From assembly GCF_019635465.1 (NCBI RefSeq), contig NZ_JAHBZK010000001.1, positions 1 through 64,000 on the forward strand: DNA of 64,000 nt, in the 5' to 3' direction. The notes under the pieces were generated by a model. The model had not been told where the DNA came from and did not search any database. It was given only the letters and a program-made list of their open reading frames with translations. Both the position numbers and the translations under genes were made by a program. Origin of the DNA: Hydrogenophaga sp. (GTDB taxonomy: Bacteria > Pseudomonadota > Gammaproteobacteria > Burkholderiales > Burkholderiaceae_C). Below, in pieces: positions 46,810-50,697 of the stretch. The first letter of the stretch is position 1. Each line of letters opens with the position of its first letter.

Positions 46810-48426
46810 ATGGCCACCGCGCTGAAAGCCGTCAGCAAAGAACACAAGGCACCACCCGCAAGCGATCTGTTTGCGGGCGCATCCACCCGGGATGTCCTCG
46901 GGTCCACCCACACCGACGAACTGGTGATTGCCCTGTGCGGCCCCATCGGCTCACCCTTGCACGAGGTGGCCGACAAGTTGCGGGACATGCTGCGCAGCAC
47001 GTTTTCCTACGAGGCTTGCCGGGTGGTTCGGCTGAGCCAGTTCATCGAGGAACACGCCAAGCGCGCCAGTCGCTCCATCCCGGACACGCCAGCCGAACGC
47101 CGCCACGCCCTGATCGATATTGGTGACGAGATGCGCAGCGTCTACGGCGCCAGCGTGTTGGCCGAGCTGGCGGTGCACGAAATCCGGGTCGATCGGGAGC
47201 TGAACGCGCGGGACCAGCAAACACGCCAGTACCTGCCCCGCCGCGCCTGCCACATCATTGACTCAATCAAAAACCAACAGGAGCTTGAACTGCTGCGCAC
47301 CGTGTACCGCGAGGCGCTGTACGTCGTCGGTGTGTTCGCCCCGGTCAGCGCACGCGAGCAGTCCTTGCGCACCCAGGGCCTGGACAACGCGGCCATTGCC
47401 ATGCTGATGGACCGCGACTCGGGCGAAGAGCGCGACGACGGTCAGACCGTGCAGGAGACTTTCCCGCAGTGCGATTTCTTCTTGCGCATGGACACCAACA
47501 CCGAGACCCAGTTGCGCGCACGCGTCGAGCGCTTCCTGCATCTGGTACTGGGCACGCAAGTCATCACACCGACGCGGGCCGAGACCGCCATGTATGCCGC
47601 CGCGTCGGCGGCCAGCAACTCGGCCTGCCTGTCGCGCCAGGTGGGCGCTGCCGTCACTGACCAGGAAGGCGAAGTCCTTGCCATTGGATGGAACGATGTG
47701 CCGCGCGCGTTTGGCGATCTCTATGTCAGCGAGGTGGCTCGAGCGGGCGGCACGGGCAGTGCGGGCGAAGATCTGCGGTGCTGGAACTTCGGTGGCAAGT
47801 GCTACAACGACGAGGAGAAGGACCTCCTCGCCGGGCATGTGGTGGACGCGCTGGGTGATCTGGTCACGGCGGGGCACCGCCAGGCGGCACTCGACCGCGT
47901 GAAGGGCAACCGAAAACTTCGGGGTTTGATCGAGTTCTCACGCTCGATCCATGCAGAGATGCACGCCATCCTCACCGCACTGCGCCAGAAGGGAGACCGC
48001 GTTCGTGGCGGCAAGTTGTTCGTCACCACCTACCCCTGCCATTCGTGCGCGCGCCACATCATTGCCGCCGGCATCACGGAGGTTTACTACATCGAACCCT
48101 ACAAGAAGAGTCTGGCCATCCGGCTGCACGGCGATGCCATGACCGAAAGTGAGGAGGCCAGCGACAAAGTCCGTTTGCTGCCCTACGACGGCGTGGCGCC
48201 CACCCGTTTCCTGAGTCTGTTCAAGATGAAACCCGACTCGCGCAAGCGCAACGGCAAAGTTATCCGCCTCGCACCGGATCAGGGAACACCCAAGGCCGAG
48301 AAGAGCCTGGAAGCCTTGCCGGCCCTGGAGGCCTTGGTCGTAGAATCCCTGCGGCGCAAGAGCCTGGTGGAAGACCCATCACCCGGAGACGCAAACCATG
48401 AAGATTCAGGTCCAACTCCCGCTTGA
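46810..48426 (+). CDS. Anti-phage dCTP/dCMP deaminase (AvcD/DCD-like)
   Basis: 538-aa two-domain protein. The N-terminal domain (about 35-250) looks like a nucleotide/nucleoside kinase P-loop domain but its loop reads GPIGSP at residues 44-49, without the usual Lys. The C-terminal domain has the zinc site of cytidine deaminases: H381-A-E383 and P409-C410-x-x-C413. This combination is that of the defence deaminases that destroy dCTP/dCMP when phage infects (AvcD in Vibrio). Catalytic residues are intact. A basic, Pro-containing tail of about 50 residues follows. The known systems are held off by an RNA antitoxin; the leader here is short and structured. A 71-aa gene overlaps the 3' end. A simple metabolic dCMP deaminase is much shorter, so that alternative is unlikely. 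Confidence 0.88.
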   Translation: MATALKAVSKEHKAPPASDLFAGASTRDVLGSTHTDELVIALCGPIGSPLHEVADKLRDMLRSTFSYEACRVVRLSQFIEEHAKRASRSIPDTPAERRHALIDIGDEMRSVYGASVLAELAVHEIRVDRELNARDQQTRQYLPRRACHIIDSIKNQQELELLRTVYREALYVVGVFAPVSAREQSLRTQGLDNAAIAMLMDRDSGEERDDGQTVQETFPQCDFFLRMDTNTETQLRARVERFLHLVLGTQVITPTRAETAMYAAASAASNSACLSRQVGAAVTDQEGEVLAIGWNDVPRAFGDLYVSEVARAGGTGSAGEDLRCWNFGGKCYNDEEKDLLAGHVVDALGDLVTAGHRQAALDRVKGNRKLRGLIEFSRSIHAEMHAILTALRQKGDRVRGGKLFVTTYPCHSCARHIIAAGITEVYYIEPYKKSLAIRLHGDAMTESEEASDKVRLLPYDGVAPTRFLSLFKMKPDSRKRNGKVIRLAPDQGTPKAEKSLEALPALEALVVESLRRKSLVEDPSPGDANHEDSGPTPA

Positions 48427-48613
48427 TTTTTCCGCCCACGACGGCGTCGAGCCACAGCCTCGCCACACGGCCCGTGTCGTCGATCTGGGTGTCGAGCGAG
48501 AGGCCCGGCAACGTCGCCGGATGGCACGCGCCTACGCCGACATCGCCGAATCGGTTCGCCATCTGACCGAATCCTCCCGACGCGGCGCCACCACGCTCAG
48601 CCGCGGCAAGTGA
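48398..48613 (+). CDS. Small basic protein coupled to the deaminase gene
   Basis: 71 aa, no family recognised. It starts inside the last 29 bases of the deaminase gene and has its own GGAG 9 bases before the ATG, so it is translated from the same mRNA. The first half is MKIQVQLPLDF, then a charged stretch ending in an Arg-rich helix (EREARQRRRMARAYADI) and a polar tail. It may be an accessory or control protein of the deaminase; that is inference from overlap only. Confidence 0.7.
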   Translation: MKIQVQLPLDFSAHDGVEPQPRHTARVVDLGVEREARQRRRMARAYADIAESVRHLTESSRRGATTLSRGK

Positions 48614-48813: not shown

Positions 48814-50697
48814 TTGACCTCTCAGGAGACCGGCACAAACACCAGGCCGCTGACTGAGCGCCAGCCCATGCTGGCCTTGCCGCCCTCGTTGGCGCGCCGC
48901 TGGCACCGCGGTCTGTGGTGGCGATCGGAGCCCAAACGGCTCAGCACGGCCACCGTGCTGTCGCTGCTGGCGCACGCGCTGCTGCTCAGCCTGAGTTTCG
49001 GTGGTCAGGGCCTGGGCCTTCCCGGATTGGGGCTGCCCTGGAACGAGCGTCGCGCAGAGGTTCCCGATGCGGCCTCGCCAAGCGCTTCCGCGGACACCGC
49101 CACCGCGGGCGATCGCGCGCTCACCACCACGCCCGCAAACCCCACGACGTCGACGCAACGCAGCGCCTCGCCAGCAGGACGGCCAGGCGCCCTGTCGGTA
49201 CTGGACTACGCCGAGTTGCAGGCGCGACGCGAAGCCGCCGCGAAACGCGAGGCCGCGCGCATCGCCGCCCTGGAGGCCGAGGCCAGGCGCCAGGCCGCCG
49301 CCCGACGCGAGGCCGCACGCCAGGAGGCACGGCGCCAAGAGGCCATTCGCCAGGCGGCTGCCGCCAAGGCGCAGGCCGCGCGTCAGCGCGCGGCGCAACA
49401 AGCAGCTCAAAAGGCAGCTCAACGGGCCGCCGAGCAACTCGCCAGGCAGCAGGCAGCGGCGGAGCGGGCACTGGCCGAGCAGCTGGCTACTGCACGACAA
49501 GCCGAAGCTGCGCGCGCCGAGACCGAACGCGTAGCGCTCGCACAGCAGGAGGCGCAACGCCAGGCCGCTGCTCAAGCAGAGGCCGCCCGCACCGAGGCTG
49601 AGCAACAAGCACTCGTGCAGCAGGAGGCGCAACGCCAGGAAGCGGCGCGACAAGCCACCGCACAAGCCGAAACAACGCGTGCCGAAGCCGAGCGACAAGC
49701 GCTTGCACAACAGGAGGCTCAGCGACAGGAGGCAGCACGACAGGCCGCCGCACAAGCAGACGCTGCGCGTGCCGAGGCCGAGCGACAAGCCCTCGCGCAG
49801 CAGGAAGCCCAACGCCAGGAGGCAGCACGACAGGCCGCCGCGCAAGCCGAAGCAGCGCGTGCCGAAGCCGAGCGACAAGCCCTCGCGCAGCAGGAAGCGC
49901 AACGCCAGGAGGCGGCGCGACAAGCCGCCGCACACGCCGAAGTAGCGCGTGCCGAAGCCGAGCGACAAGCGCTTGCACAACAGGAGGCTCAGCGACAGGA
50001 GGCAGCACGACAGGCCGCCGCGCATCAAGCCGCAAGCCAGCGCGCGGCTGACGCGGCTGCTGCCAGTGCAGCGGCCGCTCGTGCGGCCACCAACTCAACC
50101 AGCGCTGCCGGCTCCGCCACCCAGAGCGCGTCGACAACCACCGCCACCGGCGCTCCCACAGCGCCTGCGGGCACGCCAGGCAACACGCCCAGCTCAGCCA
50201 ATGGCCAGGACACCGCTGCCGCGGATGCCGCCTACGAGGCCCTGCGCGAGGAGCGCTTGCGCGCCATTGGGCGCCAGTTGATGGAAGAAGCCGCCCAACG
50301 CGAGGCCGAAGAAGCCGCCGCGCAGCGCAATCCCCAGGCCAGCCCGCTCAGGCGCGTGCGCCTGTTCGGCCGCGCCCACGCCAACCCCGACCTCGTGCGC
50401 TACGCCGAGGCCTGGGCCTGGAAGATCCAGCGCAACATGACCATCGACTTGGTGCGCCCGCTCATCCAGCAGCCGCACAGCGACCCGGTGGTGCGCGTTG
50501 CCGTGCGCAGCGACGGCACGGTGGAGTCCGTGACGTTCGAGCGCTCCAGCGGCCTGCCCGCACTGGACCAGGCGATTCAGCGCATCGTATACAGCCAGGC
50601 CGCCTACGAGCGCTTTCCGGCGGGCCTGGCCAATCAGTACGACGTGATCGAAATCCGCCGCAGCTGGCACTTCGATGTCGCCGTGCGTCTCTACTGA
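48814..50697 (+). CDS. TonB/TolA-like energy-transducing protein with repeat coiled coil
   Basis: 627 aa. A cytoplasmic start is followed by one membrane segment (about residues 47-70), a long Ala/Arg/Gln/Glu-rich region (150-420) predicted as helical coil, a Ser/Thr/Ala linker and a C-terminal TonB-like domain (about 535-627) with VVRVAVRSDGTVESVTFERSSG and a final EIRRSWHFDVAVRLY. The TTG start at 48814 is chosen because GGAGG lies 7 bases upstream; the ATG at 48868 has no such site. No ExbB/ExbD or receptor gene adjoins. TolA is the closest layout, TonB the closest C-terminal domain. Confidence 0.8.
   Translation: MTSQETGTNTRPLTERQPMLALPPSLARRWHRGLWWRSEPKRLSTATVLSLLAHALLLSLSFGGQGLGLPGLGLPWNERRAEVPDAASPSASADTATAGDRALTTTPANPTTSTQRSASPAGRPGALSVLDYAELQARREAAAKREAARIAALEAEARRQAAARREAARQEARRQEAIRQAAAAKAQAARQRAAQQAAQKAAQRAAEQLARQQAAAERALAEQLATARQAEAARAETERVALAQQEAQRQAAAQAEAARTEAEQQALVQQEAQRQEAARQATAQAETTRAEAERQALAQQEAQRQEAARQAAAQADAARAEAERQALAQQEAQRQEAARQAAAQAEAARAEAERQALAQQEAQRQEAARQAAAHAEVARAEAERQALAQQEAQRQEAARQAAAHQAASQRAADAAAASAAAARAATNSTSAAGSATQSASTTTATGAPTAPAGTPGNTPSSANGQDTAAADAAYEALREERLRAIGRQLMEEAAQREAEEAAAQRNPQASPLRRVRLFGRAHANPDLVRYAEAWAWKIQRNMTIDLVRPLIQQPHSDPVVRVAVRSDGTVESVTFERSSGLPALDQAIQRIVYSQAAYERFPAGLANQYDVIEIRRSWHFDVAVRLY
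49573..50022 (+). repeat. Five tandem 90-bp repeats within the TonB-like gene
   Basis: Five units of exactly 90 bases (30 aa each) beginning at 49573, 49663, 49753, 49843 and 49933, preceded by a 75-base partial unit at 49498. The consensus is RAEAERQALAQQEAQRQEA framed by Ala/Gln. Units differ by silent and conservative changes, so they are not brand new copies. Confidence 0.92.

Follow-up and report, generated by a model that had tools for sequence, protein, structure and literature searches.

The question raised by this locus is whether a putative nucleotide-depleting defence enzyme acts by itself or is governed by a partner encoded beside it. The window, the whole stretch of 64,000 nucleotides analysed here, carries on its forward strand an ORF (46810..48426) that is open across all 538 aa and joins an adenylate-kinase-like N-terminal domain to a dCMP/dCTP-deaminase C-terminal domain. 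The initial annotation had assigned its product to the AvcD/DCD type of defence deaminases, an assignment borne out by profile searches, in which the protein scored 458.6 bits against the NCBIfam model of anti-phage dCTP deaminases (NF041025), above the curated whole-protein cut-off of 400, and 533 bits against the PADLOC dCTPase model. The zinc site matched Pfam PF00383 well above chance (E 2e-17), and the proposed comparison with plain metabolic enzymes came out on the same side, with only 48 bits against the curated model of the dCMP-deaminase-like ComEB, far below its cut-off of 219.45. All motif positions named earlier recur in the translation, namely the lysine-less P-loop-like motif GPIGSP at residues 44-49 (46939..46956) and a complete zinc deaminase site consisting of HAE at residues 381-383 (47950..47958) and PCHSC at residues 409-413 (48034..48048), all on the forward strand. 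Across 18 aligned deaminases, G47, H381, A382, E383, P409, C410, and C413 are invariant. A P-loop without lysine is normal in the clade (GPIGSD, GFIGTD, TPIGSF, and similar forms in relatives), indicating that its absence is not decay in the window copy. In addition, a structural model of a relative (L048, 56% identical to the window deaminase) matched adenylate-kinase-like and dCMP deaminase PDB structures in Foldseek, the best match being an adenylate-kinase-related protein, in agreement with an N-terminal kinase-like domain; no solved two-domain family member was present among the best 50 of 996 Foldseek matches or among 14 sequence matches. With kinase-like and deaminase domains, an intact zinc site, and scores above cut-off, the product of 46810..48426 is, as judged from its sequence, an anti-phage dCTP deaminase and adds one member to an established family, and deamination of dCTP/dCMP, as in AvcD, would be expected of it from family membership. 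Among the homologues, three from one family of the window's order (L031-L033) have longer frames of 738-765 aa.

The genomic setting agrees with the earlier statement that no further defence genes lie nearby, since PADLOC recognised none among seven neighbouring proteins. Its only matches there (mad3, mad8, and AriA, all to an ABC ATPase) were read as generic ATPase similarity and rejected as a defence system, the protein matching Pfam ABC_tran and belonging to a transporter operon. Upstream of the deaminase gene, this operon encodes a substrate-binding protein, the ABC ATPase, and a permease, and downstream lie a TonB/TolA-like gene, a carboxymuconolactone-decarboxylase-family gene, and a gshB-like gene (neighbours assigned by Pfam for six proteins, the gshB label by translation). 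The TonB/TolA-like protein (48814-50697) has a C-terminal Pfam TonB_2 domain and a 90-base repeat present in roughly five and a half copies. Mobile-element marks were looked for through tRNAs, none of which occurs in the window, and through the Pfam matches of the six neighbours.

The description of these surroundings as a housekeeping region stands except for the interval between the transporter operon and gshB, which is variable. In ten sibling stretches beside the permease, both flanks are present in six, with an interval of 1.1-1.9 kb compared with 4.5 kb in the window; the remaining four gave a permease match only (three stretches) or ended at a contig end (one). No match for the TonB-like tail, the carboxymuconolactone gene, or the small partner described below was found by tblastn in the ten stretches, and an ORF resembling SMR-type transporters, as judged from its translation, occupies four of the five sibling intervals translated (L071, L073, L077, and L079). 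The shorter sibling intervals with other content thus mark the permease-gshB interval as a small variable spot, in which no marked G+C shift was detected. The deaminase was found in its own genome alone among 60 genomes searched, its own included, and in none of 35 same-genus genomes (G001-G035), some of them incomplete. The nearest relative found in a species-genome scan resides in a Hydrogenophaga MAG (L005; deaminase 82% identical), and the lack of common upstream DNA between this relative and the window fits gene transfer.

What did not hold up is the claim that the deaminase stands alone. A small partner ORF of 71 aa (48398..48613, forward strand) begins 29 bases inside the 3' end of the deaminase gene and is conserved in the deaminase clade; a ribosome-binding-site-like GGAG (48385..48388) lies 9 bases 5' of its ATG. 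Its translation contains QLPLDF at residues 6-11 (48413..48430), the conserved block VVDL (48476..48487), and a C-terminal stretch reading YADIAESVRHL (48533..48565), all on the forward strand. QLPLDF and the overlapping QVQLPL both fit the consensus for binding to the sliding clamp, Q-aliphatic-x-[L/M]-[F/L] or Q-aliphatic-x-[L/M]-x-[F/L], as given in the accessible portion of PMC13254535, and this match suggests that the motif may bind DnaN (the beta clamp). The arrangement, with the enzyme first and the two genes overlapping, fits type II toxin-antitoxin systems, here on sequence evidence, and the partner is probably translationally coupled to the deaminase gene. No family in PADLOC, NCBIfam, Pfam, or PHROGs was matched by more than one of 23 partners at E 0.1, and no described partner with a clamp motif or clade-wide linkage was found in the literature searched, which was covered by titles and abstract starts and included few subscription papers. 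The deaminase family is already known; what appears to be new is the partner together with the motif it carries and its linkage to the deaminase across the clade. The NF041025 and PADLOC dCTPase models cover the deaminase alone, whereas the window clade adds a small gene that overlaps the 3' end or lies near it.

The small ORF might be an untranslated artefact of overlapping frames, and it could be taken as a hint in that direction that NCBI annotates no gene at the partner site of an E. coli prophage copy, although the ORF is intact there, and that the partner is not listed for a Pantoea copy in the incomplete PLSDB table. The E. coli and Pantoea partners differ at a single residue, and their genes by three additional silent codon changes. 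An artefact is nonetheless very improbable, as the motif is conserved in three phyla and the partner starts, across loci, in each of the three possible frames with respect to the deaminase, a pattern not expected of a by-product of one overlapping frame, and pN is below pS in six of seven pairs of relatives. Five computable pairs gave dN/dS values of 0.25-0.45, with dS high in some of them; L006/L024 was saturated, and L019/L023, at 1.59, showed no purifying selection. By its conservation, the partner gene is a real ORF beside the deaminase gene.

Conservation within the partner is concentrated at a few positions. In an alignment of 23 partners, leaving out L014 (no QL motif) and L016 (interrupted deaminase frame), Q is present in all 23 and the following L in 21, then comes a V/I-V/I-x-L block, represented by VVDL in the window, and a C-terminal I is retained in 20 of 22. 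Between the window and L005, the partners are 36% identical and the deaminases 82%. Modelling of the L048 read-through protein gave very low pLDDT around the motif (blocks of 28-43), followed by a helix at residues 557-601, with pLDDT blocks of 75-86 from residue 571 onwards; separate partners aligned wrongly onto the deaminase domain and were therefore left out of the read-through alignments (A3 and A4). The N-terminal motif region is thus probably disordered as modelled, and the YADIAESVRHL stretch may, by inference from the same model, be helical and constitute the deaminase-binding part.

The linkage between the motif and this deaminase branch was quantified at several levels of stringency. 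Among 20 relatives inspected (L005-L024, returned by the species-genome scan with six query peptides, which favours near relatives), 18 have a small ORF that starts at most some 40 bases away from the deaminase stop and contains Q[L/I]-x-[L/F/M]-x-hydrophobic or QLDLF, the latter being the five-letter form carried by L011; the small ORF of L018 reads QTQIIF, and that of L014 lacks a QL motif. This loose form, located in an ORF of 40-110 aa, occurs in 23 of 25 scored clade rows (deaminase at least 39% identical), in none of 37 other scored deaminase rows, and in none of 411 control genes, 211 of which have some small ORF. Since the loose form was defined after the first loci had been viewed, the published consensus and a set of viral contigs serve as checks. 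The strict consensus is fitted by 14 of the 25 clade rows, none of the 37 other deaminase loci, and one of the 411 control genes. It is missed by 10 of 24 distinct clade loci, owing to F at position 4, V or I at position 6, or the lack of a motif, and eight of these ten still fit the loose form. These counts concern homologous loci, which are not independent trials, and are given with no P value. The clade comprises 26 rows, one of which (L019, partner reading QLKFNF) is cut by a contig end and unscored; L010 and L027 are one sequence and both belong to the 25, L084 repeats L048, L052 and L068 are too short to score, and the length filter causes the larger partners of L042 and L043 to count as lacking the motif.

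The scan of viral contigs with the deaminase alignment returned 37 loci, 34 of which were scored over the first 80 residues of ORFs of up to 260 aa. Seven loci are at least 41% identical, one of them being L048 again, and all six new ones carry the motif: L083, L085, L087, L088, and L086 (QLSLDF) in the published form and L105 (QLDFVF) in the loose form. The remaining 27 scored loci share less than 39% identity, and only two of them gave a match: a small ORF with QLSFNF in L089 and a larger ORF with QALLF in L109.

Phylogenetic analysis places the small partner in a single branch. In a quick tree of 58 deaminases (omitting L016, L027, L039, L052, L067, L068, L070, and V. cholerae AvcD), the 24 with a small downstream ORF, including the window deaminase, form one clade (SH-aLRT 97) that spans Pseudomonadota, Bacteroidota, and Myxococcota, with the motif in 22 members and lacking in L014 and L018. 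The plasmid/Vibrio branch, which contains the ETEC H10407 p58 copy (L041), presumably the ETEC gene tested in the AvcID study, is separate (SH-aLRT 100); the likeness to AvcD drawn at the outset is hence one of homologous family and not of clade. Four rows, of which two come from alphaproteobacterial plasmids, form a third clade (SH-aLRT 100) whose downstream protein is of another kind. Such larger proteins, of 172-217 aa, were found at eight loci, four in the third clade (L042, L043, L059, and L062) and four outside the tree (L067, L108, L109, and L110), and they differ from the small partner in size and sequence. Those of L042 (L042:4128-4646) and L043 (L043:4063-4602) have a clamp-motif-like sequence before an unnamed domain and no match in Pfam. 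The sequences preceding the shared domain are QLSLF in L042, QLSFNL in L043, QPLLF in L062, QPLLL in L067, QGLLF in L108, QALLF in L109, and QGMLF in L110, with none in L059, so that the strict consensus is fitted by two of the eight (QLSLF and QALLF).

These motif data bear on a conservative explanation, according to which the locus encodes a plain anti-phage dCTP deaminase with an ordinary protein antitoxin whose motif binds a target other than DnaN, for instance the deaminase itself. The N-terminal position of the motif and its occurrence beside these deaminases only are compatible with such a role, but the fit to the clamp consensus, including the QLDLF of L011 and the QLSLF of the larger L042 partner, is not what it would lead one to expect, and we consider this explanation improbable.

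The best-described relative provides a guide to regulation. AvcID is a type III toxin-antitoxin system of V. cholerae, V. parahaemolyticus, and ETEC with a homologous deaminase as the toxin, L041 being 32% identical to the window deaminase. According to the accessible part of PMC10511110, AvcD is kept inactive by an RNA antitoxin, AvcI, which is unstable and lost once the phage stops host transcription. An off-switch would therefore be expected for the window deaminase too. However, the window deaminase belongs to a different clade (with the ETEC H10407 p58 copy as the stand-in for AvcD), has a downstream protein partner where AvcI, in the same portion of that source, is an RNA, and has no upstream sequence found in common with its nearest relatives. 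An Rfam search for upstream RNAs gave two matches only, both unrelated and far below the gathering score. Within 250 bases upstream, no common DNA was detected for window/L005, window/L022, L005/L022, or L012/L028, and common stretches were found in three of seven clade pairs (L019/L023, 141 bases; L006/L024, 45; L008/L009, 31), several start codons in this comparison resting on a longest-frame choice that may be off; within the AvcD-type branch, only one of six pairs has upstream DNA in common. By analogy with AvcD, the small partner is most likely the off-switch of this deaminase clade.

We tentatively favour, at somewhat less than an even chance, the view that the two genes form a defence module, with the partner, as both off-switch and sensor, tying the deaminase to the replication clamp. 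The partner N-terminus, probably disordered, would bind DnaN through its putative motif, and the C-terminal helix would probably bind the deaminase. In a healthy cell, the partner engaged with host clamps would keep the deaminase quiet; should a phage take over, strip, or inhibit the clamp or replisome of the host, partner and deaminase would be released and the deaminase would become active, converting dCTP/dCMP into dUTP/dUMP (an activity expected from its family) and starving phage DNA synthesis. From the clamp motif it would seem that the partner senses the state of the replisome, and we infer binding of the helix to the deaminase, restraint rather than targeting, and the trigger from the combined evidence. 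The larger kind of partner, of different size and sequence and also with QLSLF, QALLF, and similar motifs, counts in favour of this module. Against it count the ten of 24 distinct clade loci that miss the strict consensus, the exceptions L014 and L018, the lack of purifying selection in L019/L023 and the high dS of several other pairs, the small fraction of larger partners that fit the strict consensus (two of eight), and the prospect of an upstream RNA antitoxin, some upstream DNA being common to three of the seven clade pairs.

The main rival is that the partner is a targeting subunit that anchors the deaminase to fork-bound clamps, causing a local drain of dCTP at the sites where phage DNA that uses the host clamp is being copied. 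The same motif and operon evidence, and the occurrence of clamp-like motifs on two different partner types, would suit it equally. Nevertheless, dCTP diffuses freely, and on this reasoning a local drain would be hard to sustain. The partner is moreover small, fast-changing, overlapping, and downstream, with 56% identity between L006 and L024 compared with 91% for their deaminases, which gives it an antitoxin-like character, as genes with these properties are more typical of antitoxins. Targeting is therefore unlikely, albeit a serious contender.

Known clamp-binding proteins offer both precedents and contrasts. The clamp motif of Hda is QLSLPL. Pol III, RecB, and Hda resemble the window partner in a five- or six-residue Q-aliphatic-x-L/M-(x)-F/L motif (available part of PMC13254535), but they are replication and repair proteins outside any phage-defence operon. 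Another parallel is SocAB of Caulobacter, in which a toxin-antitoxin protein, SocB, reaches the sliding clamp through a motif of this type, as stated in the consulted portion of PMC9690074. SocB, however, is itself the replication-blocking toxin, whereas in the window the motif belongs to the putative partner of an enzyme that acts on the nucleotide pool. The SocB precedent (PMC9690074, in the same portion), together with an N-terminal motif in a probably disordered stretch, raises the possibility that the partner is a clamp poison that blocks the clamp cleft and halts phage and host DNA synthesis alongside dCTP depletion. The overlap with the deaminase gene points instead to a role tied to the deaminase, and a partner HMM built from 23 partners found no standalone copies in 229 class genomes, the HMM being weak for so variable a protein; a clamp poison thus seems more doubtful still. 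The single weak HMM match besides the own locus fell among Tat genes and was dismissed as false.

Under the preferred module, a clamp-docking protein partner would represent a second, different way to quiet a nucleotide-destroying defence enzyme, and would tie the trigger of defence to DNA replication. The data suggest that this deaminase branch is wired to the replication machinery. It is plausible, although less likely than not, that the whole branch is under the control of an undescribed family of clamp-docking proteins, such that phage action on the host replisome triggers nucleotide depletion. If so, two kinds of partner in two deaminase clades with clamp-like motifs would mean that clamp-guarding recurs in nucleotide-depleting immunity, and defence-system models, at present confined to the deaminase, would gain a second component.

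Several further copies illustrate the settings in which these genes occur. On a Rhizobium plasmid (L039:2501-4118), a copy is annotated as two overlapping genes, a hypothetical protein and a deaminase, followed by a TIR-domain gene. The region comprising deaminase and partner is present in seven of 5,426 E. coli genomes. The genes dicB, YdaT, hokD, and rem surround the pair in the chromosome of E. coli SJC33 (L120:5001-6856) and mark its setting as a prophage. In four E. coli genomes (L121:3001-4639; H56-H59), the place of the deaminase is annotated as two proteins, with overlapping frames in L121; the deaminase there is probably broken by a frameshift, and the L121 partner is intact.
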